Origin: Alphaproteobacteria bacterium
GTDB lineage: Bacteria > Pseudomonadota > Alphaproteobacteria > Puniceispirillales > Puniceispirillaceae
DNA: 19,100 nt
Reading direction: 5' to 3'
NCBI GenBank assembly: GCA_009936885.1
Contig: JAACDT010000272.1
Span: forward strand, 1-19,100
Below the pieces are notes generated by a model. It was given only the letters and a program-made list of their open reading frames with translations, had not been told where the DNA came from and searched no databases. A program made the position numbers and the translations under genes. The first letter of the stretch is position 1. Every line of letters starts with the position of its first letter. Shown piece by piece: positions 417-14,573 of this stretch.

Positions 417-1283
417 TCAGATTGCATAAAATTCGCATGCAGTCTTTCTAAAGATTGCTTCATGAAAAGATTTAGGAATTAGGGTTCTAAAAGCACTCAT
501 TAAAGTGTTGTAGTCCGAATATAGACTATCTACAGGAAAATTAGAACCAAACATGCATCGTTTTGACCCAAACTGATCTAAGCATGTTTCAATTACGGGT
601 CGAAAGTCCTCTATCTTCCAATCATGCTTAAACATCCCAAGACCTGAAATTTTGCATGTCACATTAGATAGTGAAGAAAATGATTTTAGTGCTTCTTGCC
701 AGTATTTGATCCCTTCTTTTGTTCTGTCATGTGGACTTCCAGCATGACAAAGTGCAACCTTCAACTCTGGTACCTTCTCAAAGAGAAAGGAAGCTTGCTT
801 CATTACCTCTGGAATAAGCTGCAGATCAAACGAATATCCTAGTCTGGATAGTATTTTTAGGTTTTGCAGTACAATTGGAGTTGCAATATTATCTAAGAGA
901 ATAGAGCCTGCTTCTTTACCAGGTGCTCTACTTAAAATTTGCCTCACCCCTGCTACCGATGGTAATTTTTCAAATTTCTCTATTTCTATTATCATTTCAG
1001 ATTTAGTTAAGTCACAAAATACTACCTGCTTCATATTCCAATCAGGATGATTTTTTGTGATATTATCGACCCAAATCGCCTCCTTTATAGGATCCTTGGC
1101 GCCTACTTGAATATGTATGGACCCATTAAATCCATGCGGTTTACAATCTTTCTTAAATTGATGAATTAAATAATCTTTCTGAATTGGACTTGGATCCCCA
1201 AAAAACCGCATTACAGATTTCTCTTCGAGCCACGGATAACGAACAGCAGACAAATTCCATAGATGGTGATGCGCATCAATCAT
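417..1283 (-). CDS. Amidohydrolase (COG3618, lactonase-like TIM-barrel hydrolase)
   Basis: 288 residues, the usual length for the Amidohydro_2 group that includes 2-pyrone-4,6-dicarboxylate lactonase (LigI), L-fuconolactonase and L-rhamnonolactonase. Visible active-site elements are the N-terminal MIDAHHHLW with the HxH pair at H5/H7, a strand-end histidine in VALCHAGSP (H180), and the late aspartate in FGSNFPVDS (D252), the likely general base. There is no signal peptide, so it should act in the cytoplasm. The start codon overlaps the stop of the upstream SnoaL-like gene by four bases (ATGA), indicating translational coupling and one transcript. Expected reaction: metal-dependent or metal-independent hydrolysis of a lactone produced from the imported compound. 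The family is clear; the specific lactone cannot be read from the sequence. Confidence 0.88.
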   Translation of the reverse strand: MIDAHHHLWNLSAVRYPWLEEKSVMRFFGDPSPIQKDYLIHQFKKDCKPHGFNGSIHIQVGAKDPIKEAIWVDNITKNHPDWNMKQVVFCDLTKSEMIIEIEKFEKLPSVAGVRQILSRAPGKEAGSILLDNIATPIVLQNLKILSRLGYSFDLQLIPEVMKQASFLFEKVPELKVALCHAGSPHDRTKEGIKYWQEALKSFSSLSNVTCKISGLGMFKHDWKIEDFRPVIETCLDQFGSKRCMFGSNFPVDSLYSDYNTLMSAFRTLIPKSFHEAIFRKTACEFYAI

Positions 1284-2290
1284 ATAAAACTTGTTTCCTT
1301 CATACGCTTTAGAACATCAAGCCCTTGCATTTTCCAGAAATGCAGAAAATCAATAAAAACCCAATTCTCTGTGAGCTTCTCTCCATCACGCCTATAGAAA
1401 TCAATTACACGCATGTCAGCAGGTTTGTTGCCAGCTGGCATCCCCATAAAACCACCAGTGGGCGTGAGAGTAAGGTTTGGCCAGCCAAAAAATCCGCCAA
1501 ATGCTCCCTCTGCTATTCTACAGATATGGCCATTAAATTGGCGATTAGCAAACCCTTCGCGGAATGGGCCAGAATGCTGCTGTGCATATCGCTCTAAGGT
1601 ATAGGTCGCTCCAATACCCGCCGGCCCCCACCAAATCATGTCTTCATTCCAGCTACGTCGTAATTCATCTAGTAAAGGCTCTTCTCTGCCGCCATGCCAG
1701 TTTTTGCTATCCTCAATCATAAACTCAATGGCATTTAGTGTTTTCTGGCTCTCATATTCAGGCACTGAGTCTGGGACCAACCCGTCAAGGGTCATTGGGC
1801 CAGGCTGAACCAGATGTGCACCTGTTTGCGGGGGAAACGGATTAAAGCCTGCCTGCATCATGAAATGGGGGATATCAAAAAACATAGCTGTTTCAACTAT
1901 TTTATTATCCTTAACATGATTAAATTCACCATATCGAAGCATCATAATTTTTTGTGTCGCTGGAATGTCAAGCCATGGGTTATCAAACAGACCCATTAGA
2001 TGACCCATAGACGCCACCCAAATACCTTCATGTCCTTCTATCTTATTATCACCAGCAATGAAAATATCCATTCGTCTTTGCATATGGCTTATGGATTTTT
2101 TGAGTGGTCCCCAAAATTGTTCTGCAACTGCTTTTGGACCAACCTGTTCGTTAAAAGGATGATAGCCGCGCCAAAGAACTTCAGGGTGCATTATATCTAC
2201 TAATAATTCTTCGACCCTGTTATCAAAAACCGAATCGAGCCTGCGATAATAATCTTGCACTAGTTTCTTTGCAGTTTGTTTATTATTCAT
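1280..2290 (-). CDS. Two-domain SnoaL-like (NTF2-fold) protein A
   Basis: 336 residues made of two SnoaL/NTF2-fold units, roughly residues 1-150 and 185-330. The first ends with DIPHFMMQAGF, the second with NWVFIDFLHFWKMQGLDV. The second carries a WGPAGIG motif (221-227) before the GPF segment and a 'GMPAGNKPADMRVIDFYR' strand pair typical of SnoaL ester cyclases. It is clearly a paralogue of protein C (7364-8437), which shares MMQAG, WYGPSGIG and the NWVMID...QIGVDVL ending. Family members are polyketide cyclases, dehydratases, hydrolases or isomerases; no specific reaction can be assigned. It lacks a signal peptide. It is first in the leftward operon, with the lactonase-like gene translationally coupled behind it, and starts about 82 bases from the shared LacI-type operator. 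The ATG at 2290 has a modest AGGT upstream. Confidence 0.85.
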   Translation of the reverse strand: MNNKQTAKKLVQDYYRRLDSVFDNRVEELLVDIMHPEVLWRGYHPFNEQVGPKAVAEQFWGPLKKSISHMQRRMDIFIAGDNKIEGHEGIWVASMGHLMGLFDNPWLDIPATQKIMMLRYGEFNHVKDNKIVETAMFFDIPHFMMQAGFNPFPPQTGAHLVQPGPMTLDGLVPDSVPEYESQKTLNAIEFMIEDSKNWHGGREEPLLDELRRSWNEDMIWWGPAGIGATYTLERYAQQHSGPFREGFANRQFNGHICRIAEGAFGGFFGWPNLTLTPTGGFMGMPAGNKPADMRVIDFYRRDGEKLTENWVFIDFLHFWKMQGLDVLKRMKETSFI

Positions 2291-2342
2291 ATCGTTTTCG
2301 ACCTATCAAAATGTGAACCAGCTTAGGAGAGAAAAAATTAGC

Positions 2343-2372
2343 TTGCCAAGATAAGATTTCCTTGTCTAGAAT
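2343..2372 (+). promoter_or_regulatory. Candidate promoter of the rightward ABC/catabolic operon
   Basis: TTGCCA (2343-2348) and TAGAAT (2367-2372) lie 18 bases apart, giving a reasonable sigma-70 -35/-10 pair. The expected transcription start is near 2379, inside the palindromic operator. This arrangement is classic for repression. It leaves a leader of about 107 bases before the solute-binding protein gene. Read by eye only. Confidence 0.5.
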
Positions 2373-2380
2373 TTTTGCAA
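2351..2380 (-). promoter_or_regulatory. Possible leftward promoter of the SnoaL A/lactonase operon
   Basis: On the minus strand, TTGCAA (complement of 2375-2380, inside the operator) and TCTTAT (complement of 2351-2356) are 18 bases apart. Each matches the consensus at four of six positions. If real, the LacI-type site overlaps its -35 box, so a single operator would control both directions. This is a weak call. Confidence 0.25.
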
Positions 2381-2392
2381 ACGTATGCAAAA
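2373..2392. promoter_or_regulatory. LacI/GalR-family operator (near-perfect palindrome)
   Basis: TTTTGCAAACGTATGCAAAA is a 20-base palindrome centred on a CG step (2382-2383) with nine of ten base pairs symmetric; only the third pair from the centre (A2380/A2385) fails. The central CpG and TGCAAACG-like half site are typical of LacI/GalR-family operators, where the hinge helix inserts at the CpG. It lies in the divergent spacer just downstream of the rightward -10 box. The only DNA-binding regulator in the window is the LacI-family protein at 8421-9491, the obvious candidate ligand. I saw no second copy elsewhere in the window. Confidence 0.75.
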
Positions 2393-2422
2393 TTACCTTA
2401 TTTAAATTTTTAAACGACAAAT

Positions 2423-2439
2423 TTCAGGAAAAACCTGAA
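2423..2439 (+). other. Small hairpin in the leader of the solute-binding protein mRNA
   Basis: TTCAGG and CCTGAA form a perfect 6-base-pair stem around an AAAAA loop, about 45 bases after the inferred transcription start and 46 before the ATG. There is no T-run, so it is not a terminator. It may be a 5' stabilising element or chance. Confidence 0.3.
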
Positions 2440-2485
2440 CACAAATCAACAAAGTTCACAAAACTTCATAGGAGTATTATTTATT

Positions 2486-3712
2486 ATGTTTTTCAGAACA
2501 ATTCTAACAGCTGGAGCCATAGGGCTTCTATCAACTGCGTCTTATGCTGGATGTGGTATAGATTCTGGATCCGTACGTATTGGCGGAAATGATTTCCCAG
2601 CATATCAAGCTGTTACACAAGCAGCTAATGGCTGTTCAGGTGACGGCGTATCTGTAACCGTAGATTTAAATAAAGATCATAAAGATCGTCAGGTAGCTGC
2701 CCTTACAGCCAACCCAGCAGAATTCACATCATCGATTGCTAATAATAGTGCCTTAGTCGCACTGATGAATGATGGGCTTGTTCAGCCACTCAACAATCTA
2801 ATTGCAAAACACGGCTCTGGCTTGCAAGACATGCAAATCGTATCAATTGATGGCGAAGTAATGGCTGTTGCTTTTATGGCGAACGCGCAGCATCTTTTCT
2901 ATCGCTCTGACATTTTGGAAGCTGCTGGTGTAGCACCTCCTAGGACTTATGAAGAAGTATTAGCTGCGGCTAAGGCAATCAAAAGCAAAGGATTAATGGA
3001 GTATCCTATTGCTGGCACCTATGGAGGCTGGAACCTTGGTCTTGAATTCATCAATATGTATTTAGGACATGGCGGTGAATTTTTTGAAAGCGGTTCTGCA
3101 AACCCGTCAATTAATAATGCCAAGGGTGTGGCTACTTTAAATATGATGAAGTCTCTTTCTGCCTATATGAACCCAGACTTCCTCACCTATGACTCAAACG
3201 CTGTTCAGGCAGATTGGGAAGCTGGCAAGGTTGCTTTAACCAATCTTTGGGGCTCACGTGCTGGCGCTGTAACAGACGGTGAAGGGTCAACTGCTGAAAT
3301 TGATAGCAACACCAAATTTGCTAGCGCTCCAACTGTAGCTGGTGGCACAACTCCTTCAACCACCTTATGGTGGGATGGTATTACGGTTGCGACCAACATA
3401 TCTGATGAAGATGCAGAAGCAACTTTTATTGCTATGATGGAAGGTATTTCGCCTGCAATGGCTGCGGCAAATCCAAATAAAGCAAACTGGCTAATTTCAG
3501 GTGCTAAGCCTCGCGCAACTGGAGTTGGTGTTGTTGAGTCTGCAAAAGGCGGCGCACTTCCATATCCAATGCTTCCCTATATGGGCTCAATGCATAATGC
3601 TATTGGCAGCGAGATTGTTGACTTTCTTCAAGGCAATGAAACAGCAGAAAAAGCCCTTGCAGATGTAGAAGCAGCTTACATCGCAGCTGCCACTGAAAAA
3701 GGCTTTCTATAA
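2486..3712 (+). CDS. ABC transporter solute-binding protein (carbohydrate type, family 1)
   Basis: 408 residues, the usual size for MalE/UgpB-like periplasmic receptors. An N-terminal signal peptide (about residues 1-21, ending TASYA) precedes the mature chain; C23 and C50 may form a disulfide. The lipobox is imperfect (Tyr at -3), so a soluble periplasmic form is favoured. Family features include AVAFMANAQHLFYRSDILEAAGV (canonical 'YNxxxFxxAG' region), the TYEEVLAAAKAIK helix and the tryptophan-rich LWWDGITV strand late in the protein. The start at 2486 follows GGAG at 2471-2474. It is the first gene of the rightward operon behind the LacI-type operator and is separated from the permeases by a terminator-like hairpin, fitting higher expression of the receptor. 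Substrate is unknown; sugar or polyol-like is inferred from the family. Confidence 0.92.
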   Translation: MFFRTILTAGAIGLLSTASYAGCGIDSGSVRIGGNDFPAYQAVTQAANGCSGDGVSVTVDLNKDHKDRQVAALTANPAEFTSSIANNSALVALMNDGLVQPLNNLIAKHGSGLQDMQIVSIDGEVMAVAFMANAQHLFYRSDILEAAGVAPPRTYEEVLAAAKAIKSKGLMEYPIAGTYGGWNLGLEFINMYLGHGGEFFESGSANPSINNAKGVATLNMMKSLSAYMNPDFLTYDSNAVQADWEAGKVALTNLWGSRAGAVTDGEGSTAEIDSNTKFASAPTVAGGTTPSTTLWWDGITVATNISDEDAEATFIAMMEGISPAMAAANPNKANWLISGAKPRATGVGVVESAKGGALPYPMLPYMGSMHNAIGSEIVDFLQGNETAEKALADVEAAYIAAATEKGFL

Positions 3713-3728
3713 GTCTAGCCATTTAAGG

Positions 3729-3760
3729 ATACAGAGGGTGGACCACCCTCTGTATTTTTT
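3729..3760 (+). terminator. Strong intrinsic terminator/attenuator after the solute-binding protein gene
   Basis: ATACAGAGGGT (3729-3739) pairs perfectly with ACCCTCTGTAT (3745-3755) around a 5-base loop, and could close further to 13 pairs. A run of six T follows (3755-3760). It sits 17 bases after the stop codon, inside the operon. Partial read-through or 3'-end protection here would give more receptor mRNA than permease mRNA, as known for other binding-protein operons. Confidence 0.85.
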
Positions 3761-3781
3761 ATGTAAGCATTCATCCAGAAA

Positions 3782-3812
3782 CACTTTTTAAGGCCAGCTC
3801 CACTTTTTAAGG
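3782..3812 (+). repeat. Two direct copies of CACTTTTTAAGG
   Basis: Identical 12-base units occupy 3782-3793 and 3801-3812, just upstream of the first permease gene. The AAGG of the second copy is over 20 bases from the ATG, too far to be its main ribosome binding site. Function is unknown; it may be a slipped duplication. Confidence 0.5.
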
Positions 3813-3832
3813 AAAAACCGGAAACAAGCCGA

Positions 3833-4870
3833 ATGCCACACCATACCTTCTTTAAATTTATCTGGCCTTCGGCGCTTGCGATGCTTGTATTCATCGCGCT
3901 ACCTATTATTTCTATTACCATTCAATCTTTTTATATCAACCATGAGCAGGTATTAGTAACCGTCGAAAACTGTGGGCCTTTTGGGTGTAAAGAAGTAACC
4001 AAAGTTGATGTTGAGGCCACACGTGCATTAAGCGAACAAAAGCCACTTGGCAAGTTTAATGGTTTTGGCACCTATACTAACCGTAATCACCTTGCATTCT
4101 CGCACATTAGTGAAGCATGGAATGCCGCGCCTAATCTTGGTTATTTTATCGGTGAGGTTTTAAATCTACCTTTTTATAAAGCGCTTAGTTTTACGCTTAC
4201 CTATACCTTTATTGTTACGCCATGCGTTATAATTCTTGGCTTTTGTATTGCACTTTGTGTCAACAGGTTGCCTTCAATTTTCAAAGGACCAACGATATTT
4301 GTATCTCTGCTTCCAATGATTATAACGCCGCTTATTGGCTCTCTTGTATTATTTTGGATGATAGATGCAGAAGGAATTATTGGCAGCTTTCTGAAGATTA
4401 TTTTTGATGACCCAAGCCTGTCTCTCAAGGCTTCGCCCACGCTAACTTGGATTATGCTAATTGTTTACGGGATTTGGCATCATGCGCCATTTGCATTTGT
4501 TGTATTTTATGCAGGATTGCAAACAGTCCCCAAAGACACCCTAGAAAGCGCGATGATCGATGGCGCAAGCAAGTGGGAGCAAACACGATATGTAGTCGTT
4601 CCACATTTAATGCCGTTAGTAGTTTTTATATCGCTTATTCAACTAATGGATAATTTCCGCGTTTTTGAGCCGATGGTTGGGTTTAATGCACAAGCAAGTG
4701 CAACTTCCCTATCCTGGCTAATTTATAATGATTTCAGAAGCGGGGATGGTGCGATGTTATTTGGTTCTGCTGCAGCTACATCCATTCTAACCATTATCGG
4801 CGTAAGCATTTTATTAACCCCTATTATTGTCAGATCATGGCAATCTAGCAAACCAGCTGTCGGGGGATAA
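3833..4870 (+). CDS. ABC transporter permease (MalF/UgpA type)
   Basis: 345 residues. The first membrane helix is near residues 8-30. A periplasmic loop of roughly 100 residues follows, with two cysteines in ENCGPFGCKEV (C47, C52), then the core binding-protein-dependent transport fold with helices from about residue 120 to the end. The cytoplasmic EAA loop that contacts the ATPase is visible as LESAMIDGAS (from residue 237), followed by W-x-R-x5-P (KWEQTRYVVVPHLMP). The start at 3833 is supported by a GGAAA 9 bases upstream and by the helix beginning straight after it. The gene ends 3 bases before the second permease gene. It should form a heterodimer with that protein and import the ligand delivered by the receptor at 2486-3712. 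Confidence 0.92.
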   Translation: MPHHTFFKFIWPSALAMLVFIALPIISITIQSFYINHEQVLVTVENCGPFGCKEVTKVDVEATRALSEQKPLGKFNGFGTYTNRNHLAFSHISEAWNAAPNLGYFIGEVLNLPFYKALSFTLTYTFIVTPCVIILGFCIALCVNRLPSIFKGPTIFVSLLPMIITPLIGSLVLFWMIDAEGIIGSFLKIIFDDPSLSLKASPTLTWIMLIVYGIWHHAPFAFVVFYAGLQTVPKDTLESAMIDGASKWEQTRYVVVPHLMPLVVFISLIQLMDNFRVFEPMVGFNAQASATSLSWLIYNDFRSGDGAMLFGSAAATSILTIIGVSILLTPIIVRSWQSSKPAVGG

Positions 4871-4873
4871 GAC

Positions 4874-5746
4874 ATGAATAAAGCAAGCCCCCACTGGTTA
4901 AATTTTTTAAGTATCTCCTTTTTAGTGTTATGGTTAGTTCTTGCTTGTGTCCCTTTTCTATGGACATTTTGGGGTAGTTTTAAAGTCCAAGCAGATTTTT
5001 TCTCCAAGCAGGATTGGCAAAATGCAATTTTTGGGATTCGCACCCTTGTTGAAACAGGCGCAAGCTTTACCACTGACGGCTATGAAGGCGCTTGGATTCA
5101 AGAGGGTTTTTGGAAAGCGGCTCTTAACACAGCCATTGTTACTTTAAGCGTTGTTGCTATTTCACTTACGCTTGGCACGCTTGGCGGATATGCCTTGGCG
5201 AGGTCCGGGTTTAGATACGCTTTCTGGATACTGATTGCCGCACTTATTTTTCGTGCAATGCCTCATATCACATTAGTTTCAGGATATTTATTACCATTCT
5301 TTGAACTTGGATTATGGGGACACCTATCCACAACGATCATCGTTCTGGTAGCCATAAATCAGCCTTTCACTTTATGGATGTTACATTCATTTTTTCTATC
5401 CATCCCTAAAGATTTAGATGAAAGCGCGATGGTGGATGGATGCACAAGATTTCAAGCATTCAGACATGTCATTATTCCTGTTATGTGGCCAGGCGTAATA
5501 ACAACGGGGCTATTTAGTTTTTTGCTGGCCTATAATGATTTTGCCATCACAGCACTACTTCTAACCGAGGAAAACCAAACAATGGTTCCCAAAATTGCAA
5601 GCTTTTTAGGGTCCACGCAAGAGCAGGGCAATGTGATGTTTGCAGTGGCAGCGGTTGTATCTGCAACAGCGCCTTTATTTGTTTTAGTAATGTTCTTTCA
5701 ACGTCAAATTGTCAGCGGATTAACCGCAGGAGCAGTAAAAGGATAA
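4874..5746 (+). CDS. ABC transporter permease (MalG/UgpE type)
   Basis: 290 residues, usual for MalG-type subunits. Helix 1 covers about residues 12-33. A periplasmic loop with DFFSKQDW and an insertion up to about residue 80 precedes the transport-protein core. The EAA motif is DLDESAMVDGC (from residue 180) with FQAFRHVIIPVMWPG behind it. The C-terminal helix and short tail (QRQIVSGLTAGAVKG) are characteristic of MalG-like permeases, whose end reaches toward the translocation path. It lies between the MalF-like permease (3 bases apart) and the ATPase gene (9 bases apart), so it is cotranscribed. Family is certain from motif and context; ligand is not known. Confidence 0.93.
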   Translation: MNKASPHWLNFLSISFLVLWLVLACVPFLWTFWGSFKVQADFFSKQDWQNAIFGIRTLVETGASFTTDGYEGAWIQEGFWKAALNTAIVTLSVVAISLTLGTLGGYALARSGFRYAFWILIAALIFRAMPHITLVSGYLLPFFELGLWGHLSTTIIVLVAINQPFTLWMLHSFFLSIPKDLDESAMVDGCTRFQAFRHVIIPVMWPGVITTGLFSFLLAYNDFAITALLLTEENQTMVPKIASFLGSTQEQGNVMFAVAAVVSATAPLFVLVMFFQRQIVSGLTAGAVKG

Positions 5747-5755
5747 ACCGATTTA

Positions 5756-6829
5756 ATGGCTAGTATAACCTTAAAAAACTTAAGCAAAAGATGGGGAAGT
5801 TTTGTTGCTGTAGATGACTTAAATCTTGAGGTTTTTGATACAGAATTTCTTGTTTTACTTGGGCCATCTGGCTGCGGGAAGACAACAACAATGCGTATGA
5901 TAGCAGGGTTAGAGCAAGAAACCTCTGGCGAGGTATTTATTGGCACGACAAAGGTAAATCAGCTAGAGCCAAAAGATAGAGATGTTGCCATGGTATTTCA
6001 ATCTTATGGTCTGTACCCAAATATGAATGTATATGAGAATATAAGATTCCCCCTTAAAATTCGAAAGATTGATCCCAAAACCCATGCCACCCGCGTAAAT
6101 CGAGCCGCTGAGATGGTAGAGCTTACAGAGTTTCTGCATCGCAAACCCTCTGAGCTTTCGGGTGGTCAGAAACAACGCGTTGCATTGGCACGAGCTATTG
6201 TTCGAGAGCCAAATGTATTTTTAATGGATGAACCTCTCTCCAATCTTGACGCAAAATTAAGAGTATCAACACGGGCACAAATAAAACATTTGCATCATGA
6301 AATGCAGGTAACAACGATTTATGTTACGCATGATCAAATAGAAGCAATGACACTTGCAGATCGCGTTGTTGTTCTAAATAAAGGTGTTGTCCAGCAAATT
6401 GGAACCCCTTCCCAGATTTATGATACTCCTCAAAATCTATTTGTTGCTGGTTTTATTGGAAACCCTGCAATGAACCTAATTTCTGGGCATATTATCAACA
6501 ATCAGTTTAACGCAGAAAATATCAGCCTGAGTGGATTTAAAACCAATGATGGCGCTATAACGCTTGGATTTCGAGCAGAGGACGCTGCGATACAAACTAA
6601 GGAAACTAAATCTGCAACTAATAATCAGATTTCAGCTCCTATCTATACTCTGGAATTACTAGGTGATTCTACGATGGTCTCCTTTCAGATTTCAGATTCA
6701 TTAATATCGGTAAAAGCGCCAAAGGATTACTCGGCTAAAATTGGAGATGTTGTAAATATCCAAATTCCAATTAGGGCTTGCCATCTATTTGACACTGAGA
6801 ATGGAACACGAATTAGGGAGAGCCGCTGA
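5756..6829 (+). CDS. ABC transporter ATP-binding protein (MalK/UgpC type)
   Basis: 357 residues with every nucleotide-binding motif: Walker A GPSGCGKTT (36-44), Q-loop Q82, signature LSGGQ (134-138), Walker B FLMDEP (155-160) with catalytic E159, D-loop SNLD, and H192 in YVTHDQ. Residues from about 235 onward form the regulatory TOBE-like domain found in carbohydrate importers, although this tail is divergent. GTPSQIYDTPQNLFVAGFIGNPAMN is the typical MalK/UgpC linker. It would energise the two permeases encoded just upstream. AAGGA lies about 12 bases before the ATG. The stop codon overlaps the start of the next gene by one base (TGATG), tying the first SnoaL-like enzyme directly to the transporter. 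Confidence 0.95.
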   Translation: MASITLKNLSKRWGSFVAVDDLNLEVFDTEFLVLLGPSGCGKTTTMRMIAGLEQETSGEVFIGTTKVNQLEPKDRDVAMVFQSYGLYPNMNVYENIRFPLKIRKIDPKTHATRVNRAAEMVELTEFLHRKPSELSGGQKQRVALARAIVREPNVFLMDEPLSNLDAKLRVSTRAQIKHLHHEMQVTTIYVTHDQIEAMTLADRVVVLNKGVVQQIGTPSQIYDTPQNLFVAGFIGNPAMNLISGHIINNQFNAENISLSGFKTNDGAITLGFRAEDAAIQTKETKSATNNQISAPIYTLELLGDSTMVSFQISDSLISVKAPKDYSAKIGDVVNIQIPIRACHLFDTENGTRIRESR

Positions 6830-7374
6830 TGGTAGGAGCAAGACCAGAACAAGCCACGTTAAGTAAGGATACCGATTTATCAAAAACAGATGCTACGCGC
6901 GCAGTGATAGAGGGCATGGTTGACGGTCTTAATGACCACCGAATTAATGATATAGGACAGTTTTTTGCCTCTCAATTTAGATGGATGGGTAATTTTGGTT
7001 GCGGAACAAAAAACGGATTAGATGCATTTCAGGATAACTGGCAGAGACCGTTTCAGGCCGCATTTTCAGATAAGGTCTGCATCGATGAGGCACGCCTTTA
7101 TATGGGTGAATGGGCAGCAGCCTTTGGCAGGCAAGAAGCTATTCATAGCGGCGAGTTTATGGGCATTCCAGCCACAGGTAAAAAAGTGGATATTCGCTAT
7201 ATGGATTTCTGGAAAGTTAAAGAGGGCAAAATCGTTGATAATTGGGTGATGGTTGATTTTCCGTCTGTGCTGTCACAGCTTGGCGTGGATTGTTTTTCAG
7301 GCCAAGGGTGGGAAGCCTTTGATAAGGGTACTAAAACACCCCCAACACCAGAAAGAAGGTCAGATGGCACTTAA
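6829..7374 (+). CDS. Single-domain SnoaL-like protein B (ester-cyclase type)
   Basis: 181 residues with one SnoaL/NTF2-fold unit at about residues 18-155. Its RWMGNFGCGT segment (51-60) stands where proteins A and C have WWGPAGIG and WYGPSGIG. It shares FMGIPATGKKVDIRYMDFW and NWVMVDFPSVLSQLGVD with their second domains. It therefore looks like a free-standing version of that second domain. The N-terminal 20 residues and the tail after about 160 are polar and probably disordered. It starts at the 1-base overlap with the ATPase gene and overlaps the next SnoaL gene by 11 bases, so translation should be coupled. The SnoaL fold is known in cyclases, hydrolases and isomerases; substrate unknown. 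Confidence 0.85.
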   Translation: MVGARPEQATLSKDTDLSKTDATRAVIEGMVDGLNDHRINDIGQFFASQFRWMGNFGCGTKNGLDAFQDNWQRPFQAAFSDKVCIDEARLYMGEWAAAFGRQEAIHSGEFMGIPATGKKVDIRYMDFWKVKEGKIVDNWVMVDFPSVLSQLGVDCFSGQGWEAFDKGTKTPPTPERRSDGT

Positions 7375-8437
7375 AGCTCAGTCTGACAAGCAAATAATCT
7401 CAACCCTGTGTAATGCGCTATATGATTTTGACCCGAATAAAGTGCAAGAACTTTTATCGGAAATCATACATCCAGACGCTTTATGTCGATATTTTCATCC
7501 CATAGGCGATGTAAAACCGGAGCTCCTCTATAGCAAATTATACGCTCCTCTTTATACAGCGCTACCTGATTTTGAAAGGCGCGAGATTATTTGTGTTGCT
7601 GGCAGTGATGATGATGGCAATTCTTGGGTTGGAAATGCTGGCTACTTTATCGGCATTTTCACCCATGCTTTTATGGACATACCCCCAACCGGTCAAATAG
7701 CCCATATCAGATTTCATGAGTTTTATAAACTTAAGGCTGGGGCGATAATTGAAATCCAAGCGGTATGGGATATTCCAAGTTTAATGATGCAGGCTGGAGT
7801 CTGGCCAATGGGGCCCTCTCTTGGTTATGAATGGCTGGTGCCTGCGCCTGCGAGACAAGATGGCCTTGATAATAGCCGTTCAGATAAGACACCCCCACTT
7901 AAAAACAAAGCCCTTGAGAACAAAACACTTGTATTGGATATGCTAACAGCAATGAGCAAACATCCAAAATATGGTGGCGCAGAGATTATGCAGCTTGAGA
8001 AGTTCTGGCACCCCAAATTTTGCTGGTACGGGCCCTCTGGTATTGGCAGCAGCCGCGGCATTTCTGGTTTTCGTAACCATCATCAAATCCCCTTTCTAAA
8101 GGCAATGCCAGATAGAGGACAACATTCAGAAGATGTAACTCATCATTTTTTTGCAGAAGGGCAATATGTTGCCGTTACAGGCTGGCCTAACATGTCTCAG
8201 ACTTTAACAGATGATGGGTGGCTTGGGATTGCGCCTACCAATCAGAGAATAAATTTAAGGTCGCTTGATTTTTGGAGAATTGAAAATCAGAAAATTCGGG
8301 AGAATTGGGTAATGATTGATTTGCTCGATATATGGTCACAAATTGGGGTAGATGTTTTATCACGTATGCGCCAACTTGCAATTCCCAAATCACAGCCCAG
8401 TCAGACAGCTTCTGGAATAGATGCTAATGTCGGATAA
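7364..8437 (+). CDS. Two-domain SnoaL-like protein C, paralogue of A
   Basis: 357 residues from the ATG at 7364 (MALKAQS), chosen because GAAAGAAGGT lies just upstream and the alternative start at 7253 would sit deep inside the previous gene. Domain 1 (about 5-150) ends in DIPSLMMQAG; domain 2 (about 185-335) contains WYGPSGIG (221-228) and the ending NWVMIDLLDIWSQIGVDVL. These match protein A (1280-2290) position by position, so the two are ancient duplicates placed in opposite arms of the cluster. The tail after 340 is low-complexity. It has no signal peptide and is presumably a cytoplasmic enzyme acting on the imported compound. The reaction cannot be named from sequence. Confidence 0.85.
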   Translation: MALKAQSDKQIISTLCNALYDFDPNKVQELLSEIIHPDALCRYFHPIGDVKPELLYSKLYAPLYTALPDFERREIICVAGSDDDGNSWVGNAGYFIGIFTHAFMDIPPTGQIAHIRFHEFYKLKAGAIIEIQAVWDIPSLMMQAGVWPMGPSLGYEWLVPAPARQDGLDNSRSDKTPPLKNKALENKTLVLDMLTAMSKHPKYGGAEIMQLEKFWHPKFCWYGPSGIGSSRGISGFRNHHQIPFLKAMPDRGQHSEDVTHHFFAEGQYVAVTGWPNMSQTLTDDGWLGIAPTNQRINLRSLDFWRIENQKIRENWVMIDLLDIWSQIGVDVLSRMRQLAIPKSQPSQTASGIDANVG

Positions 8438-9491
8438 TTCATTAATAAAAGCGGCGCCTTCATTAAGTGATGCCAGTCAGACGAAAATAACCTCCATGGA
8501 TGTAGCAAAGCTGGCAGGCGTCAGTCAATCTGCTGTCAGTAGAGTATTTACAAAAGGGGCATCTGCATCTGCAAAAACAGTAGAGAAAGTGCAAAATGCA
8601 GCAAAGGAGCTTGGATATCGCCCAAATAGAATAGCACGCTCTTTGCTAACAGGTCGCTCTTATATGATAGGGTTAGTGGTGGCTTATTTAGATAATTATT
8701 TTTATCCCGAAATATTAGAAAGGCTGTCTCATTCATTGCAAAAAGAAGGGTATCATGTTCTCATCTTCATGGCAGCTCAAACAGCTCAGAATGTAGATAA
8801 AGTTGTTGAGGAGATATTGGAATATCAAATAGATGCTATTGTTACTGCATCTGTTGCTCTTTCCTCTGAATTAACCACGAAATGTGAAAATGCTGGCATT
8901 CCTGTTCTACAGTTTAATCGTATTCAACATCAATCGTCATTCGCATCTGTAACAACTGACAACCACCTCGGGGGCAGCCTAATAGCAAAGCATTTAATTG
9001 ACCAAGGATATCGTTCTTTTGGATATATAGCAGGCTGTGAAGGCGCATCGACCCAGCGCGACAGAGAAGCTGGATTTCGCCAAACACTCAATGATTACGG
9101 ATTTGATATAACCGCAAGAGCGGTTGGAAATTTCAGAACTGAGCAGTCTCGTGAAGCAGCGCTTAGTATCGTAAATCAATCCGCAATACCAGAGGCTGTT
9201 TTTGTTGCAAATGACGCAATGGCGCTTGTTGTAATGGATGTTTTCCGGTTTGAACTTGGTCTTACCATTCCAGATGACATAGGTATTGTTGGATATGATG
9301 ATGTGCCCCCCTCTAGGCTTGCAAGCTATGATCTTACAACGGTCTCTCAGCCAGCAGAACAGATGGTCCAACAAACTGTATTGCTTATAATGCAATACAT
9401 GCAAGGCAAGCCTATACAGCAAAACGAAATCAAATTACCCGGACAGCTTATAATTCGCTCTTCCTCACAGAAGACACAGCACCAGAAATGA
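8421..9491 (+). CDS. LacI/GalR-family transcriptional regulator
   Basis: 356 residues from ATG 8421; an ATG two codons later (8427) is equally possible, with GGA at 8414-8416 better spaced for it. A 22-residue extension precedes the helix-turn-helix SMDVAKLAGVSQSAVSRVF (25-43), followed by the hinge region YRPNRIARSLLTGRS (67-80). The remainder is the periplasmic-binding-protein-like effector domain, with IGLVVAYLDNYFYPEIL, FVANDAMALVVMDVF and DIGIVGYDDVPPS, all classic LacI-family landmarks. It should bind the CpG-centred palindrome at 2373-2392 and release it when a cluster substrate or intermediate binds. The gene overlaps protein C and sits in the middle of the operon, so it probably regulates its own expression. 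Confidence 0.95.
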   Translation: MLMSDNSLIKAAPSLSDASQTKITSMDVAKLAGVSQSAVSRVFTKGASASAKTVEKVQNAAKELGYRPNRIARSLLTGRSYMIGLVVAYLDNYFYPEILERLSHSLQKEGYHVLIFMAAQTAQNVDKVVEEILEYQIDAIVTASVALSSELTTKCENAGIPVLQFNRIQHQSSFASVTTDNHLGGSLIAKHLIDQGYRSFGYIAGCEGASTQRDREAGFRQTLNDYGFDITARAVGNFRTEQSREAALSIVNQSAIPEAVFVANDAMALVVMDVFRFELGLTIPDDIGIVGYDDVPPSRLASYDLTTVSQPAEQMVQQTVLLIMQYMQGKPIQQNEIKLPGQLIIRSSSQKTQHQK

Positions 9492-9503
9492 AGGTTGCAA
9501 GAG

Positions 9504-10478
9504 ATGCAAGGATTTAACCCTAAATTCAAAGACTTTCCAGATTATATTCTAGGTATTACCCACGAAATCTGGGAAGAAAAGCAAGTGGAGGCGCTATATC
9601 ATTATTATTCTGATGATATTCTGGTACGTTCTCCAAGCTCTCTTGTTATTGGCAATAAGGCCGTGATTGATGCCACCCACGCCACCTTATCTGAGTTTCC
9701 AGACAGACAGCTTTTAGGAGAAGATGTTATTTGGTCAGGGTCTCCTGAACAAGGCATGTTATCTTCGCATCGGATATTCTCAACCGCAACCCATCTTGGT
9801 GCTGGCAGCTTTGGCAAGCCAACAGGCAGAAAACTTCGCTATCGTGTAATTGCAGATTGTCATGCTATTGCCAATCAAATTAATGATGAATGGTTAGTGC
9901 GCGATTTTGGAGGAATTGTTCACCAGCTCGGATATGATAGTGAAGAATTTGCATTACACCAAATTCGTAATGAAGGCGGTATCGCTGGCTGCAATAAACC
10001 TTTTAATGCTGACATGGATATAAAAGGCCCCTATCTTGGGACTGGAAATGATAATGAATGGGGCACCTTATTTGCTGAGATTCTAACTTCGATTATGGAT
10101 GGCAAAAATGATATAATCCACCGCCATTATGACCGTGCTGGAAAGGGGTTTTATCCTGAAGATACACTCGCAGTAAGCTTATCTGAAATTGAGGCATTCT
10201 GGATATCATTTCGAAATTCCTTTCCATCTGCTAGATTTACAATACATCATAAGATAGGCAGGCAAGATGCCTTTCTGCCTCCAAGAGCTGCTATAAGATG
10301 GTCGATATCTGGCACGCATGACGGGACAGGCCGTTTTGGAAATCCGACAGGCTCAGATGTATATATAATGGGCATCAGCCACGCAGAATTTGGACCTTGG
10401 GGACTTCGCAGGGAATATACATTGTTTGATGATGTTGCCATTTGGAAACAAATTCACATTCATATGGGGAGAGAATAA
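9504..10478 (+). CDS. Divergent two-domain SnoaL-like protein D
   Basis: 324 residues from the ATG at 9504, preceded by AAGG at about 9-base spacing; a TTG at 9495 in the same frame is a weaker start. Two NTF2-like units are apparent, roughly residues 12-145 and 185-320. Domain 1 has the typical helix-rich start, YYSDDILVRSP strand, FGKPTGRKLRYRVIADCH and a terminal WLVRDFGGIVHQLGYD. Domain 2 repeats the layout with HYDRAGKGFYPEDT, FGNPTGSDVYIMGIS and a final WKQIHIHMGRE. It lacks the WGPxGIG motif of A-C, so it is a separate lineage. The stop overlaps the next start by one base (TAATG). Fold assignment is fairly safe; function is unknown. Confidence 0.75.
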   Translation: MQGFNPKFKDFPDYILGITHEIWEEKQVEALYHYYSDDILVRSPSSLVIGNKAVIDATHATLSEFPDRQLLGEDVIWSGSPEQGMLSSHRIFSTATHLGAGSFGKPTGRKLRYRVIADCHAIANQINDEWLVRDFGGIVHQLGYDSEEFALHQIRNEGGIAGCNKPFNADMDIKGPYLGTGNDNEWGTLFAEILTSIMDGKNDIIHRHYDRAGKGFYPEDTLAVSLSEIEAFWISFRNSFPSARFTIHHKIGRQDAFLPPRAAIRWSISGTHDGTGRFGNPTGSDVYIMGISHAEFGPWGLRREYTLFDDVAIWKQIHIHMGRE

Positions 10479-11437
10479 TGACCGGTCAGGTTCACATCGT
10501 TCGATATGGCGAGCTTATTCCATGCCGCACTGCGTTCATTGACGCGCATACACCAGGCTCTGATAAAAAAGAAAATTTTACAATTATTGGGGGTGGCGTA
10601 TCTGAAGCTGCTGACCAGCATGTACATATTAAACAAACACCTGGATTTAATATCGGAGCTGCAGGCCAACCACCTAAATGTCGTAATTCGCTACATACCC
10701 ACCGAACCGCTGAAGTTTTCTTCGTCTTATCAGGGAGATGGCGCTTTTTTTGGGGCAGATGGGGCAATGCAGGAGAAGTGATACTAGAAGCAGGAGATAT
10801 ATTTAATATCCCAACTGGTATGTTTAGAGGCTTTGAGAATATAGGAACTGATTATGCAATGATAATGGCCATTCTTGGCGGTGATGACGCTGGGGGCGGC
10901 GTGGAATGGGCCCCCCAAGTTATTGAGGAGGCAAAAGAGCATGGTCTAATTCTGGGCGAAAACAATATATTATATGATACAAAAAAATCTGAGAATCTGC
11001 CTGACGATATCAACGCAAAGGCGGTTATGGATGAGGCTACCTTAGCCGCGATGCAAGAGCCAAAAACAGCTGATATTGTTCCAAGATGGGTATCTAGATA
11101 TCTTGATCTGTTGGCACTTTCGAGCGATGGCGAGGTGTCTGTCATAGGAGAAGAAGGTCTTATTTTTGACAAGCCTGGATTTGAGGTGAGTTTTATATCT
11201 TCTAAAACTAAATTAAAGGACGTGAAATCAGACAGGTATGACATTCTAATGCCTGTAAAAGGACATTGGAAGCTTAGCCATAGCGGTCATGAAGAAATTC
11301 TGTCAGCAGGTGATACAACTCTTATCAAGCCAAATAATAATTATAGGCTAGAGCCATCCATGTCAGGGGAGGCAAGTTTATACCGCATCACAAACACTGG
11401 CGATACCGCAGGTCCAACTTGGTTTGAAAGGAACTAG
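10478..11437 (+). CDS. Bicupin domain protein
   Basis: 319 residues from the ATG at 10478 (GGGGAGAG just upstream); a TTG at 10442 would lie within the previous gene and is rejected. Cupin 1 includes SLHTHRTAEVFFVLSG with H73, H75 and E79 as metal ligands, followed by AGDIFNIPTGMFRGFEN. In this second motif the usual last histidine of the cupin site is replaced (MFRG). Cupin 2 (about 220-315) has DILMPVKGHWKLSHSG and LSAGDTTLIKPNNNYRLEP and no metal ligands, so it is likely structural. Size and architecture recall gentisate-dioxygenase-like and sugar-isomerase-like bicupins. The altered ligand set argues against a simple dioxygenase assignment. It is cotranscribed between SnoaL D and the MetE-like gene. 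Confidence 0.8.
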   Translation: MTGQVHIVRYGELIPCRTAFIDAHTPGSDKKENFTIIGGGVSEAADQHVHIKQTPGFNIGAAGQPPKCRNSLHTHRTAEVFFVLSGRWRFFWGRWGNAGEVILEAGDIFNIPTGMFRGFENIGTDYAMIMAILGGDDAGGGVEWAPQVIEEAKEHGLILGENNILYDTKKSENLPDDINAKAVMDEATLAAMQEPKTADIVPRWVSRYLDLLALSSDGEVSVIGEEGLIFDKPGFEVSFISSKTKLKDVKSDRYDILMPVKGHWKLSHSGHEEILSAGDTTLIKPNNNYRLEPSMSGEASLYRITNTGDTAGPTWFERN

Positions 11438-11440
11438 CAA

Positions 11441-12574
11441 ATGAGACATATCCGTACAACTCATGTAGGCTCACTGCCAAGATCTCAAGAAGTAACAGAC
11501 CTGCTATTTTCCAAAGAAAAAAACCAAAGCTTTGATAGTGCTCAGTTTGATAAGGTAATGTTGGAACATGTAGAAGGGCTTGTTGTGCGTCAAAAACAAT
11601 CAGGAATTGATATTGTTAGTGATGGCGAGACGTCGAAAATATCCTATGCGACATATGTTAAAGATAGATATACTGGATTTTCAGGTGACAGCCCTAGAAA
11701 CGCGCCAGCAGATTTAAAGCTGTTTCCTACTTTTCTGCAAAGATTAGCCAATAGTGGCGGTACACCAGAATATGCAAGGCCAATGTGCACATCACAGGTT
11801 AGCCCGCTAGATAGTACCGAGCTTGATAAAGATATATCTCATCTGAAATATGCAATTGCAAAACATGAAAATTTAACTGGATTTATGAATGCCGCATCCC
11901 CTGGTGTGATCTCCTTATTTTTGCAAAATAATTTCTATCCGACTAGAGAAGATTATTTGCAAGCACTTGCCGAAGCAATGAGAGGGGAGTATCAGACCAT
12001 CGTAAATTCTGGACTTGATTTACAAATAGACTGTCCAGATCTCGCTCTATCACGACATATGCTGTTTAATGATTTATCAGATTCAGACTTTATTAAAATC
12101 GCTGATAGCCATGTCGAAGCGCTGAATTACGCGCTTGAGGGAATAGACCCAGCAAAGGTAAGAGTTCATATATGCTGGGGTAATTACGAGGGCCCGCATA
12201 TCTGTGATATTTCCATGGATAGTGTGTTTTCAACCTTCATGTCTGTAAATGCAAATTATCTACTTTTTGAGACCTCAAATCCGCGCCATGCGCATGAATG
12301 GACCATATTTGAAAATAGAAAAAATGAGATTCCAGATGAAAAAATTCTTATTCCTGGTGTTATTGATTCAACCACTAACTTTGTTGAGCATCCAGAACTA
12401 ATCGCCCAGCGTCTGGAGAGATTTACCAATATTGTTGGCATAGAACGTGTAATTGCAGGTTCTGATTGCGGGTTTGGCACCTTTGCTGGATTTGGCGCAG
12501 TTGACCCTGAAATCGCCTTTGCGAAATTATCCTCTCTTGCAAAAGGTGCCGCAATTGCATCAGCGCGTTATTAG
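11441..12574 (+). CDS. MetE-C-like zinc methyl/alkyltransferase (COG0620)
   Basis: 377 residues corresponding to the C-terminal catalytic barrel of cobalamin-independent methionine synthase, without the N-terminal half of true MetE. The start motif RTTHVGSLPR is the family hallmark. A complete zinc quartet can be placed: H243 and C245 in VHICWGN, E277 in LLFETSN, and C343 in AGSDCGFG. Close families include methionine-synthase-II-like proteins and epoxyalkane:coenzyme M transferase, which activate a thiol on zinc. AAGGA lies just before the ATG, 3 bases after the cupin gene. In a substrate-catabolism operon, demethylation or thiol addition is more likely than methionine synthesis; that is inference. 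Substrate and thiol are unknown. Confidence 0.85.
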   Translation: MRHIRTTHVGSLPRSQEVTDLLFSKEKNQSFDSAQFDKVMLEHVEGLVVRQKQSGIDIVSDGETSKISYATYVKDRYTGFSGDSPRNAPADLKLFPTFLQRLANSGGTPEYARPMCTSQVSPLDSTELDKDISHLKYAIAKHENLTGFMNAASPGVISLFLQNNFYPTREDYLQALAEAMRGEYQTIVNSGLDLQIDCPDLALSRHMLFNDLSDSDFIKIADSHVEALNYALEGIDPAKVRVHICWGNYEGPHICDISMDSVFSTFMSVNANYLLFETSNPRHAHEWTIFENRKNEIPDEKILIPGVIDSTTNFVEHPELIAQRLERFTNIVGIERVIAGSDCGFGTFAGFGAVDPEIAFAKLSSLAKGAAIASARY

Positions 12575-12578
12575 CGCT
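12562..12578 (+). other. Short GC hairpin over the stop of the MetE-like gene
   Basis: AGCGC (12562-12566) pairs with GCGCT (12574-12578) around a 7-base loop that includes most of the TAG stop. Only CCTTTCT follows, so termination would be weak; it may attenuate transcription into the RraA-like gene. Confidence 0.25.
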
Positions 12579-12640
12579 CCTTTCTAAATTTCATCATTTT
12601 TTTATAATCATTAATTAAAATTCAGCTAGGTAGAACAAAC

Positions 12641-13336
12641 ATGACTGAGACACTTTTTAAATTGCTACAATCAGTAGATACCCCAACCGTATGTAACGCA
12701 ATTGAGGTAGCACAGAACAAGCGTGGCTTTGACCAATTCACCAAAGGCACCATAATTTCATCCAACCCAGCCGAGAAACCAATTTGTGGATATGCCAGAA
12801 CCGCAAAAATCGCTGCTATTAATCCTCCAACAGAAAAGGCTGAGACTATAAAAGAACGCCGGCTTTCTTATTATCGGCATATGGCCTCAGGCAGTAGCCC
12901 GTCAGTTGCTGTTATTGAGGATATTGATTTTCCAGCCTGTATTGGCGCGTTTTGGGGAGAAGTTAATACCAACATTCATAAAGGTCTTGGAATAAGCGGG
13001 GCTTTCACCAACGGCGTTATGCGCGATTTAGGTGATTTACCAGATGGCTTTCCGGTACTTGCAGGCTCTATCGGGCCTAGCCATGGTTTTGTGCATATTA
13101 AAGAAATTGGCACTCCTGTGACGATTTTTGCTCTGACTGTAACAGATGGCGATCTGATACATGCTGACAGGCACGGCGCAGTTGTTATTCCAACGAGTGT
13201 TATAAATATCCTTGAAGCATCAATCCATAGATTACTCGAAACAGAACAGCTAATTTTGGGCCCCGCTAAGCGCGGTGATTTTGATATTGATAAGTTTGAA
13301 GCTGCTTGGGCAGCTTTTGAAGCAGCCCGCATCTAG
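12641..13336 (+). CDS. RraA-family protein (HMG/CHA aldolase-like)
   Basis: 231 residues, close to the usual size of RraA-fold proteins. Visible signatures are TPTVCNAI near the start, AFWGEVNTNIHKGLGISGAFTNG, then the catalytic MRD (R128, D129) where Arg binds substrate and Asp binds metal, and the late DGDLIHADRHGAVVIP. In this superfamily, LigK/ProA-type enzymes cleave 4-hydroxy-4-methyl-2-oxoglutarate or 4-carboxy-4-hydroxy-2-oxoadipate to pyruvate and pyruvate or oxaloacetate, while true RraA inhibits RNase E. Catabolic context favours an aldolase or decarboxylase. It follows the MetE-like gene after 66 bases, with AGGTAG before the ATG, and a TATAAT at 12603-12608 that lacks a good -35 box. 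It may be the last gene of the operon. Confidence 0.85.
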   Translation: MTETLFKLLQSVDTPTVCNAIEVAQNKRGFDQFTKGTIISSNPAEKPICGYARTAKIAAINPPTEKAETIKERRLSYYRHMASGSSPSVAVIEDIDFPACIGAFWGEVNTNIHKGLGISGAFTNGVMRDLGDLPDGFPVLAGSIGPSHGFVHIKEIGTPVTIFALTVTDGDLIHADRHGAVVIPTSVINILEASIHRLLETEQLILGPAKRGDFDIDKFEAAWAAFEAARI

Positions 13337-13362: not shown

Positions 13363-14559
13363 TTACCAGTTATAGCTTAGTGTGATGCTAGCGTTGCTAT
13401 CTTGTGCAAGAGCGGCTTGGCCTGCATCTTTTTCAAAATTCGAATGAAAATTCAAATTCGATTGAATCGTAAATAGATCATTCAGCCTTGTAGAATAAGA
13501 AAGGCGCGTTAGCAGCGAGGTATAGGATAAATCTCTTATAAGAAATAAGTTGATTTCGCTATCATCTATGTTATTGAAAAGTAGTGTTGCCCCTACTGCA
13601 AAATCTCTCTGAAAAATTGTGTGGCTATCTTTTCCACGACTATCTGCTGCCAATTCGCCCACTAAAATCAGATCATAAGAGCTATCAAACACACCATATA
13701 TGTTGTGCTCGGCGCCAAATACGCCAGCACTATAATCTTCTTTTACGCCATTTGCATTAAATTGACCTGTGCGGCGAACTATTTCTGTTTTAAGCGCTGT
13801 ATCTCCTAGCAAATACTGTACATCAGCGCCGATTTGCTGAATTAGAAAATAGTTAGGCACAAGGCGACCATCTGAGCCAAGAGTAAAATAAGGCTCCCGC
13901 GTTATTCCATCAAAATAACTTAGACCGTAATCTAAATCGCCTTGATACCCCTCATAGCGAAGCGCATAGCTATTATCGTTTCTCGATGCATCATTTGAGT
14001 AGCTAGCAGTATCATTGCTAACTAAGTTCTGAAGTCTGGCACGCGAGGATAATCCAGGATAGACATTTCCAACAAAAAAAGGAAATAACAGTAAAGATAA
14101 ATAGCCGTCCTTAAGGTCAGATGAAACCTTAAAAGCCGGCGCCCCTAGTTTCTGCGAATCTGCAAGACCTGATGTATAATCATAGCTATTGATTATATCA
14201 CTTGGATTATAGCTTTCTGTTTTTCCCCAAAATTCCAGAAGGCTTCCAATGCGGATATCCATTTCTTTTGCCCTAAATGAAATATGAGCTTCTCTTAAAT
14301 CAGCTCTGCCCGCACCTGTATCTCCTATTCTCAAACGTGGTTGAATAAATGTCTGCGTTGAGCCTTGCTCTATAAATAAAGAGGGTTCAATCTGAACCTC
14401 CCCAAAATTATCATTCTGCTCAGAAAAAGCTGGGTTTTCAAAATAGCTAGAGGCCTTAAACTCAACCTTTCCATATTGTTCAATATAGTCAAATGAATTA
14501 GCGACATTACTAGCACCCATAATCCAAGCAGAAATCATCAAGGCGACATATTTATTCAT
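13363..14559 (-). CDS. Predicted outer-membrane beta-barrel protein
   Basis: 398 residues with an N-terminal signal peptide (about 1-22, ending SNVANS) and a mature chain rich in alternating aromatic/polar strands. The last strand ends ITLSYNW, a C-terminal aromatic as required for barrel insertion. FWGKTESYNPSDIINSYDY (110-128) matches the conserved WGxTES...DIIN...D motif of large uncharacterised barrels often found beside RND/MMPL proteins. The start codon lies 14 bases after the RND gene stop, with AAGG spanning that gap, so both are on one transcript. It probably supplies the outer-membrane part of an envelope trafficking unit with the RND-LolA-like protein. The family name (DUF1302-like or related) cannot be settled by eye. 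Confidence 0.75.
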   Translation of the reverse strand: MNKYVALMISAWIMGASNVANSFDYIEQYGKVEFKASSYFENPAFSEQNDNFGEVQIEPSLFIEQGSTQTFIQPRLRIGDTGAGRADLREAHISFRAKEMDIRIGSLLEFWGKTESYNPSDIINSYDYTSGLADSQKLGAPAFKVSSDLKDGYLSLLLFPFFVGNVYPGLSSRARLQNLVSNDTASYSNDASRNDNSYALRYEGYQGDLDYGLSYFDGITREPYFTLGSDGRLVPNYFLIQQIGADVQYLLGDTALKTEIVRRTGQFNANGVKEDYSAGVFGAEHNIYGVFDSSYDLILVGELAADSRGKDSHTIFQRDFAVGATLLFNNIDDSEINLFLIRDLSYTSLLTRLSYSTRLNDLFTIQSNLNFHSNFEKDAGQAALAQDSNASITLSYNW

Positions 14560-14573
14560 GAATTAAACCTTTT

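Follow-up and report, generated by a model that had tools for sequence, protein, structure and literature searches.

The window analysed here is an entire contig of 19,100 bases (JAACDT010000272.1) from a genome of the Puniceispirillaceae (GCA_009936885.1), which is 80% complete and consists of 339 contigs. Between positions 417 and 13336, it carries a cluster in which four proteins of the SnoaL family (A to D) are encoded together with a sugar-type ABC importer, a LacI-family regulator and several putative catabolic enzymes. With high confidence, this cluster was assigned to a LacI-controlled, transport-linked catabolic system with several SnoaL proteins. Its gene set is conserved, the promoters share operator words, single genes are swapped between hosts, and in Vibrio there is a link to an L-serine ammonia-lyase. 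The substrate can be assigned only tentatively: the system may serve the LacI-controlled uptake and catabolism of a small, polar, serine- or glycine-bearing metabolite of algae or cyanobacteria, for which a mycosporine-like amino acid (MAA) such as shinorine would be the most likely candidate.

Gene Layout and SnoaL Proteins

The cluster comprises two divergent runs. The leftward run holds SnoaL A and an amidohydrolase gene; the rightward run consists, in this order, of the genes for the receptor, two permeases, the ATPase, SnoaL B, SnoaL C, LacI, SnoaL D, the bicupin, the MetE-like and the RraA-like protein. An earlier note, made by a model from the letters of the window, had described four SnoaL proteins with about seven NTF2/SnoaL units around one LacI-controlled sugar-type ABC importer, together with bicupin, MetE-like and RraA-like genes and tight gene overlaps. 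All open reading frames (ORFs) were confirmed at the coordinates given there. The importer and its regulator were recovered by Pfam (CUT1-type parts, LacI), and the three enzyme genes by Cupin_2, Meth_synt_2 and RraA-like domains. The overlaps are 4 bases (amidohydrolase/A), 1 base (ATPase/B), 11 bases (B/C) and 17 bases (C/LacI), and the last base of the D stop codon (position 10478) is also the first base of the bicupin ATG.

All four proteins belong to the SnoaL family PF07366 (54.1 to 75.4 bits at a Pfam cut-off of 28.4 bits). Matching stretches were found twice each in A, C and D and once in B (2+1+2+2), which gives the seven NTF2 units. A and C are paralogues with 32% identity over 342 columns, B resembles the units of both, and D is remote. 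When the seven units were aligned, a single Asp was the sole invariant column. It aligns on residue 124 of the 1sjw chain (chain counting as in the alignment). The catalytic Asp of 1sjw is residue 121 and thus three residues away, and the invariant Asp is not claimed to be catalytic.

Recurrence across Genomes

A scan of GTDB genomes by similarity to C yielded at least 576 encoding stretches. The best 80, which are not a random sample, were kept; two of them (L059 and L060) appear to be duplicate entries of a single contig. The 55 named loci are those with 9 kb on either side, and SnoaL types were counted there per ORF (tblastn counts for A and B are inflated by cross-hits). All four types were present in 41 of the 55 loci, with single counts of 46 (A), 46 (B), 55 (C) and 51 (D). 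ORFs for the receptor were found in 49, for the permeases in 49 and 50, for the ATPase in 47 and for LacI in 50 loci. Enzyme ORFs were less uniform: bicupin 46, MetE-like 35, RraA-like 35 and amidohydrolase 21. Using tblastn, a HisD-like protein was detected in 45, a short-chain dehydrogenase (SDR) in 41 and a PcaD-like alpha/beta hydrolase in 30 loci. The families added in at least five loci are HisD, SDR, alpha/beta hydrolase and GMC oxidoreductase. In four loci (L094, L117, L118 and L122), C is present without D and LacI. Hence, in the neighbourhood comparison which the earlier note had set as a test, the SnoaL genes are not scattered but repeatedly linked to the same kind of importer. The gene set exceeds chance association because it was found again, with a common operator, in distant genomes.

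For C, 5015 relatives were found at an E-value of 0.001 or better. Within the class, 28 of 385 genomes, counting the window's own, have a match at 1e-10. At 1e-60, C was found in 37 of 61 genomes of the window's family and in nine of its 11 genera, one genus contributing 0 of 16. The closest loci elsewhere carry the names Alphaproteobacteria or SAR116.

Versions of the cluster were also found in Vibrio, other Gammaproteobacteria, contigs named SAR324 and one haloarchaeon, and some use SSS, TRAP or MFS transporters. The Vibrio form of A has a match at 1e-30 in 22 of 398 genomes of the phylum and at 1e-80 in seven of 369 Gammaproteobacteria. Thus, the earlier interpretation holds for a transport-linked, LacI-controlled catabolic system, and a scope limited to Alphaproteobacteria or to ABC importers does not.

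Variation was also seen in the transport genes. The transporters belong to two subfamilies, with about 40% and 50-60% identity to the window receptor, which alternate among loci, and one cluster (L070) holds two sets of receptor and permease genes. Versions lacking the ABC importer (L195 and L188) have TonB-receptor-like genes and an SSS symporter, and L195 has one further SnoaL_2 protein. In L267 (7456-10500), the gene of a SnoaL A homologue appears to form an operon with those of an enoyl-CoA hydratase and a class V aminotransferase.

Importer, LacI Regulator and Operator

The importer contains all parts of the CUT1 type, namely SBP_bac_1, two BPD_transp_1 permeases and a MalK/UgpC-type ATPase. 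Palindromes resembling TGCATACGTATGCA were found in the divergent promoters of relatives, often in two copies about 55 bp apart. Allowing up to two mismatches, the operator site was identified in 72 of 100 loci, compared to 5.0 in Markov controls. At divergent junctions of A or C with the ABC genes (250 bases on each side), 52 of 61 had an operator and 31 had two or more; 13 sites lay elsewhere in those loci.

In a less circular test on 12 whole genomes, searched with up to one mismatch, the operator occurred at 11 places in eight genomes; four genomes had none, and a control pattern was found 0 times. Ten of these places are in SnoaL clusters (two in G668 by position only). The eleventh is directly upstream of a HisD homologue with 78.7% identity, which supports HisD as a pathway member. 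With a LacI gene and a conserved palindromic operator at the promoter, the genes are predicted to be a LacI-regulated operon, and judged by its sequence the cluster looks like one regulon. An attempt to define the regulon of the own genome by the operator was given up: among three places with up to one mismatch, only the window site was meaningful, the other two lying within ORFs which we take to be murC and a peptidase gene.

Vibrio Blocks and the Link to Serine

In the genus Vibrio, a relative of A at 1e-30 was found in 58 of 196 genomes, 56 of them with 80-98% identity. From these matches, 40 regions were picked by hand and not at random, with two regions each from several genomes. A is separate from B, C and D in many of the Vibrio blocks, and a second match at 1e-30 was absent in 27 of the 58 carriers, a threshold that could miss B and D. 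The earlier note had suggested that the SnoaL proteins may act as successive or heteromeric enzymes. Obligate heteromers were rejected, at least for A, owing to this separation.

Among 31 Vibrio copies of A (>75% identity), an L-serine ammonia-lyase was encoded within 6 kb in 22 cases and an SSS symporter together with an MFS transporter in 26. The lyase scored 649.8 bits against TIGR00720 (cut-off 345.1). On one side, the 22 lyase blocks adjoin 19 different gene families, and on the opposite side 15, which indicates that the block moves as a unit. The simplest reading is that A can catalyse, by itself, a reaction which yields serine.

A second LacI-type word, TGAGTACGTAACCA, was derived from Vibrio junctions. 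It was found at 56 sites (up to two mismatches) in the 40 regions, compared to two in one Markov control, and at least one site was present in 25 of 26 symporter/MFS junctions. Six of the scanned regions contain an SSS-C-D module, and in each of them the word is also located near the starts of the SSS and SnoaL D genes. In 12 Vibrio genomes, all seven exact matches were at the start of the symporter-lyase pair.

Within the best 120 of 2679 relatives, forms of A with 75-82% identity are named from Endozoicomonas, Cetobacterium, Ilyobacter, Psychrilyobacter, Clostridium grantii and Acetoanaerobium. Several of these genera ferment amino acids.

Enzymes and Gene Swaps

The predicted fold of the bicupin is nearest to quercetin, gentisate and salicylate dioxygenases, with oxalate decarboxylase nearly tied (model pLDDT 85.1). 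In the MetE-like protein, the residues H243, C245, E277 and C343 are invariant in 14 of 14 aligned sequences and constitute the ligands of a zinc methyltransferase; His-Cys-Glu-Cys is the zinc ligand set of MetE-like enzymes. The methionine synthase model TIGR01371 gave 27.6 of 929.95 bits. A MetE-like homologue (49% identity) followed by a single NTF2 protein was also seen near aromatic and one-carbon genes on plasmids of Sphingobium and Croceicoccus (L140 and L146). The lactonase-like gene of the earlier note is retained in part: its product is an Amidohydro_2 protein related to fuconolactonase but far below the cut-off of the L-fucono-1,5-lactonase model NF052480 (86.8 of 400 bits).

In most relatives, the set is extended by an HpsN-like HisD dehydrogenase and an SDR. 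The solved chains nearest to the HisD-like protein are sulfopropanediol dehydrogenases of the HpsN type, enzymes which oxidise a CH2OH group beside a carbinol to COOH. In the window's genome, HisD and SDR are paired on another contig, and this HisD shares 87% identity with the copy that a relative has inside its cluster.

On a plasmid of the haloarchaeon Halobellus limi, there is a cluster in which an ABC importer is encoded along with five ester cyclases and a MetE-like protein (39%). Four of the cyclases have 34-39% identity to A and 34-37% to C, and one is related to D. In place of HisD, an aldehyde dehydrogenase and a 3-hydroxyisobutyrate-type dehydrogenase are encoded. Among five haloarchaeal MetE neighbourhoods, SnoaL was found in Halobellus; none was annotated in those of Halorussus, Halobaculum, Halopiger and Halomicrobium. 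In Vibrio modules of the SSS type, a GarL/HpaI-type aldolase occupies the RraA-like slot, and the ABC-type Vibrio cluster L236 retains RraA. Since such swaps change the protein but keep the reaction, a primary-alcohol oxidation and a class II retro-aldol cleavage are likely steps of the route.

Next to the SnoaL-ABC cluster on a Vibrio pelagius plasmid (L149, 15803-28560), there are sarcosine oxidase genes together with purU, as well as a core methionine synthase accompanied by DUF1852. Sarcosine oxidase was rejected as a part of the pathway, as it has no counterpart in the 55 named loci and may be an accidental neighbour.

Proposed Substrate and Pathway

The MAA assignment is based on the features which the substrate should carry, namely serine, a CH2OH group beside a tertiary carbinol, an O-methyl group and an openable ring. 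To our knowledge, it is the MAAs among marine metabolites that combine these features with a ring that a bicupin could open. In the proposed route, the MAA would be taken up by the ABC importer (elsewhere by SSS, TRAP or MFS transporters), and SnoaL A would hydrolyse the serine (or threonine) imine as the first step, freeing the amino acid. Other SnoaL units may release glycine and act on the cyclohexenone by dehydration or retro-aldol cleavage. The HpsN-like HisD would oxidise the CH2OH group on the ring to COOH, transfer of the O-methyl group to a thiol would be the task of the MetE-like zinc protein, and the bicupin would open the resulting enediolone ring. The final steps would fall to the hydrolases and to a class II aldolase of the RraA or HpaI type. 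On paper, 4-deoxygadusol which is carboxylated, demethylated and cut between C1 and C2 would give 4-carboxy-4-hydroxy-2-oxoadipate (CHA). Some aldolases of the RraA fold split this compound to pyruvate and oxaloacetate.

It is quite conceivable, though short of probable, that a widespread and horizontally moving pathway imports and fully degrades MAA sunscreens with SnoaL-type NTF2 proteins as hydrolases and ring-processing enzymes. In Vibrio, and perhaps in gut anaerobes, shorter versions would only strip the amino acids, and the haloarchaeon would have a relative of the pathway. As the earlier note had presumed, no characterised pathway of this make-up was found in the literature searched. 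This literature also gave no report joining SnoaL and mycosporine, and for SnoaL with phytoplankton only a diatom genome.

Several observations weigh against the assignment. The combination of LacI and a CUT1 importer is usual for sugars. Both operator words were derived from junctions that were later counted, which makes the counts partly a matter of construction, and the operator-bearing loci are related by descent, a kinship that Markov controls ignore. Genome-wide matches of TGAGTACGTAACCA in Vibrio (up to one mismatch) were near background (27 vs. 22 for a control pattern), and the HisD-SDR contig of the window's genome holds no operator within three mismatches. In the bicupin, an Arg (R118, alignment numbering) is found at the position of the fourth cupin metal ligand, which is usually His, and oxalate decarboxylase scored nearly as high as the dioxygenases in the fold comparison. 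The MetE-like protein is missing in 20 of the 55 named loci and was not detected in the Vibrio regions, so demethylation by this protein is not universal. The RraA-like protein gave 23.6 of 304.5 bits on the CHA aldolase model LigK (TIGR02798). The lyase is not near A in nine of the 31 Vibrio loci, and no serine lyase was found in the 55 named loci.

A sugar-like substrate therefore deserves serious consideration, because the MetE-like protein and the lyase are often missing, the bicupin lacks one ligand and the RraA-like protein fails the CHA aldolase models. The same catabolic system could then act on another amino-acid-bearing or polyol-like marine compound, such as a seryl conjugate, a branched sugar acid or a cyclitol, with the SnoaL proteins as isomerases, dehydratases or hydrolases. 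In addition to LacI and the importer, the SDR fits sugars by its best scores on KduD/gluconate 5-dehydrogenase models, and HpsN-like HisD proteins and class II aldolases also serve routes for sugar acids and sulfonates. However, a set of four to five SnoaL genes is not known to take part in any sugar pathway, and no kinase or coenzyme A enzyme was seen among the added families of at least five loci (smaller families were not all annotated).

It is unlikely that the serine link is incidental, with symporter and lyase as a serine-use unit which shares block and repressor with A by chance. Three observations would fit such a unit: all 13 Vibrio genomes searched have Sda relatives, mostly in more than one copy; nine loci lack a nearby lyase; and in one of five loci with a second lyase copy (L275), a remote SSS-family gene (24% identity) was found about 4 kb away. 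However, the block stays together across the 19 flank families, and in other modules the same symporter family (38-41% identity) is a neighbour of SnoaL C, D or A. Furthermore, SnoaL genes are absent from all five second-copy loci, and SSS genes from four of them.

Catabolism of a methoxylated aromatic compound of the syringate or methylgallate type, with the MetE-like protein recycling the methyl group, is very improbable. It is favoured by the MetE homologues with adjacent NTF2 proteins in aromatic and one-carbon clusters of Croceicoccus and Sphingobium, by the PcaD-like and COG3618-like hydrolases and by the RraA-like aldolase. However, the families present in at least five loci include no extradiol dioxygenase and no demethylase of the aminomethyltransferase type, and transporter and regulator are not of the kind usual for aromatic acids. 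Biosynthesis of a secondary metabolite by SnoaL proteins as polyketide cyclases, which the family name and the polyketide cyclases among the best solved relatives of B suggest, was rejected and can practically be discarded, since the SnoaL/DnrD methyl ester cyclase model (NF033407, cut-off 200 bits) gave 37.2 bits for B and no match for A, C and D at an E-value of 0.01, no polyketide synthase is encoded in the window, and the transporter is an importer and not an exporter.

The MAA assignment, if true, would tell who consumes the main ultraviolet screens of algae and corals, and by which genes. A function would be given to thousands of proteins of ocean bacteria (SAR116, roseobacters) which are now called ester cyclase or NTF2-like, and SnoaL proteins would shift from biosynthetic to catabolic enzymes.

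Features of the Window

The features of the cluster are listed in Table 1. After the cluster, at 13363-17696, the window encodes a porin-like protein that matches no Pfam family, as well as an MMPL transporter with a fused LolA-like domain. Relatives of both were found in three of the 55 named loci (L051, L053 and L054), which also have a mannosyl-3-phosphoglycerate phosphatase-like gene, below model cut-offs, left of the amidohydrolase. A PcaC-like carboxymuconolactone decarboxylase (1-300) and a DctM TRAP permease (18507-19100) are each cut by the contig end.

Table 1. Genes and operator of the SnoaL cluster in the window.
Feature	Position	Strand	Evidence
Amidohydrolase-2 family (COG3618-like lactonase or C-C hydrolase)	417..1283	-	PF04909 101.8 bits; ORF present in 21 of the 55 named loci
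SnoaL protein A, two NTF2 units	1280..2290	-	PF07366 54.1 bits; conserved family
LacI-type operator TGCAAACGTATGCA, divergent promoter	2376..2389		Palindrome common to junctions of relatives
Solute-binding protein of ABC importer, SBP_bac_1, signal-peptide-like N terminus	2486..3712	+	Pfam; best solved relative SmoF, E 1.3e-9
ABC importer permease 1	3833..4870	+	PF00528 (BPD_transp_1)
ABC importer permease 2	4874..5746	+	PF00528 (BPD_transp_1)
ABC importer ATPase, UgpC type	5756..6829	+	NF008653 440.5 bits, cut-off 432
SnoaL protein B, one NTF2 unit	6829..7374	+	PF07366 70.5 bits; best solved chains 8ysb, 6hnn, 1sjw
SnoaL protein C, two NTF2 units	7364..8437	+	PF07366 75.4 bits
LacI-family regulator	8421..9491	+	PF00356, PF13377
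SnoaL protein D, two NTF2 units	9504..10478	+	PF07366 56.0 bits
Bicupin	10478..11437	+	Cupin_2; predicted-fold comparison
MetE-like protein, zinc ligands H243, C245, E277, C343	11441..12574	+	Meth_synt_2
RraA-like class II aldolase/decarboxylase	12641..13336	+	PF03737 56.9 bits

Comparison with Known Systems

The importer shares SBP_bac_1, two permeases and a UgpC-type ATPase with CUT1 importers of the UgpABCE and MalEFGK type, whereas its genes are interleaved with SnoaL genes. NTF2-fold units, a family-wide Asp and a PF07366 match are common to the window proteins and the SnoaL family represented by nogalonic acid methyl ester cyclase (1sjw) and IdmH (6hnn). In contrast to these cyclases, the window proteins are tandem two-unit proteins, linked to an importer and far below the cut-off of the cyclase model. 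The MetE-like protein has the zinc ligands and the barrel family in common with the MetE core domain and B12-independent methionine synthases, but stays far below the MetE models and is located in a catabolic operon. The bicupin has 11-16% identity to quercetin, gentisate and salicylate dioxygenases, with one of their usual His ligands replaced by Arg. The HisD-like protein of most loci aligns nearly over its full length with HpsN, sulfopropanediol 3-dehydrogenase (8v35, 8wwe; E 2.4e-114), whereas the other partner enzymes differ, no sulfonate genes were recognised and HisD is not on the window contig.

Bacteria have been described to convert shinorine and porphyra-334 to mycosporine-glycine and 4-deoxygadusol, which was also suggested for Vibrio harveyi (PMC3083659). 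The passages of that review on the conversion name no gene; the reaction itself would fit SnoaL A and the serine lyase in Vibrio.

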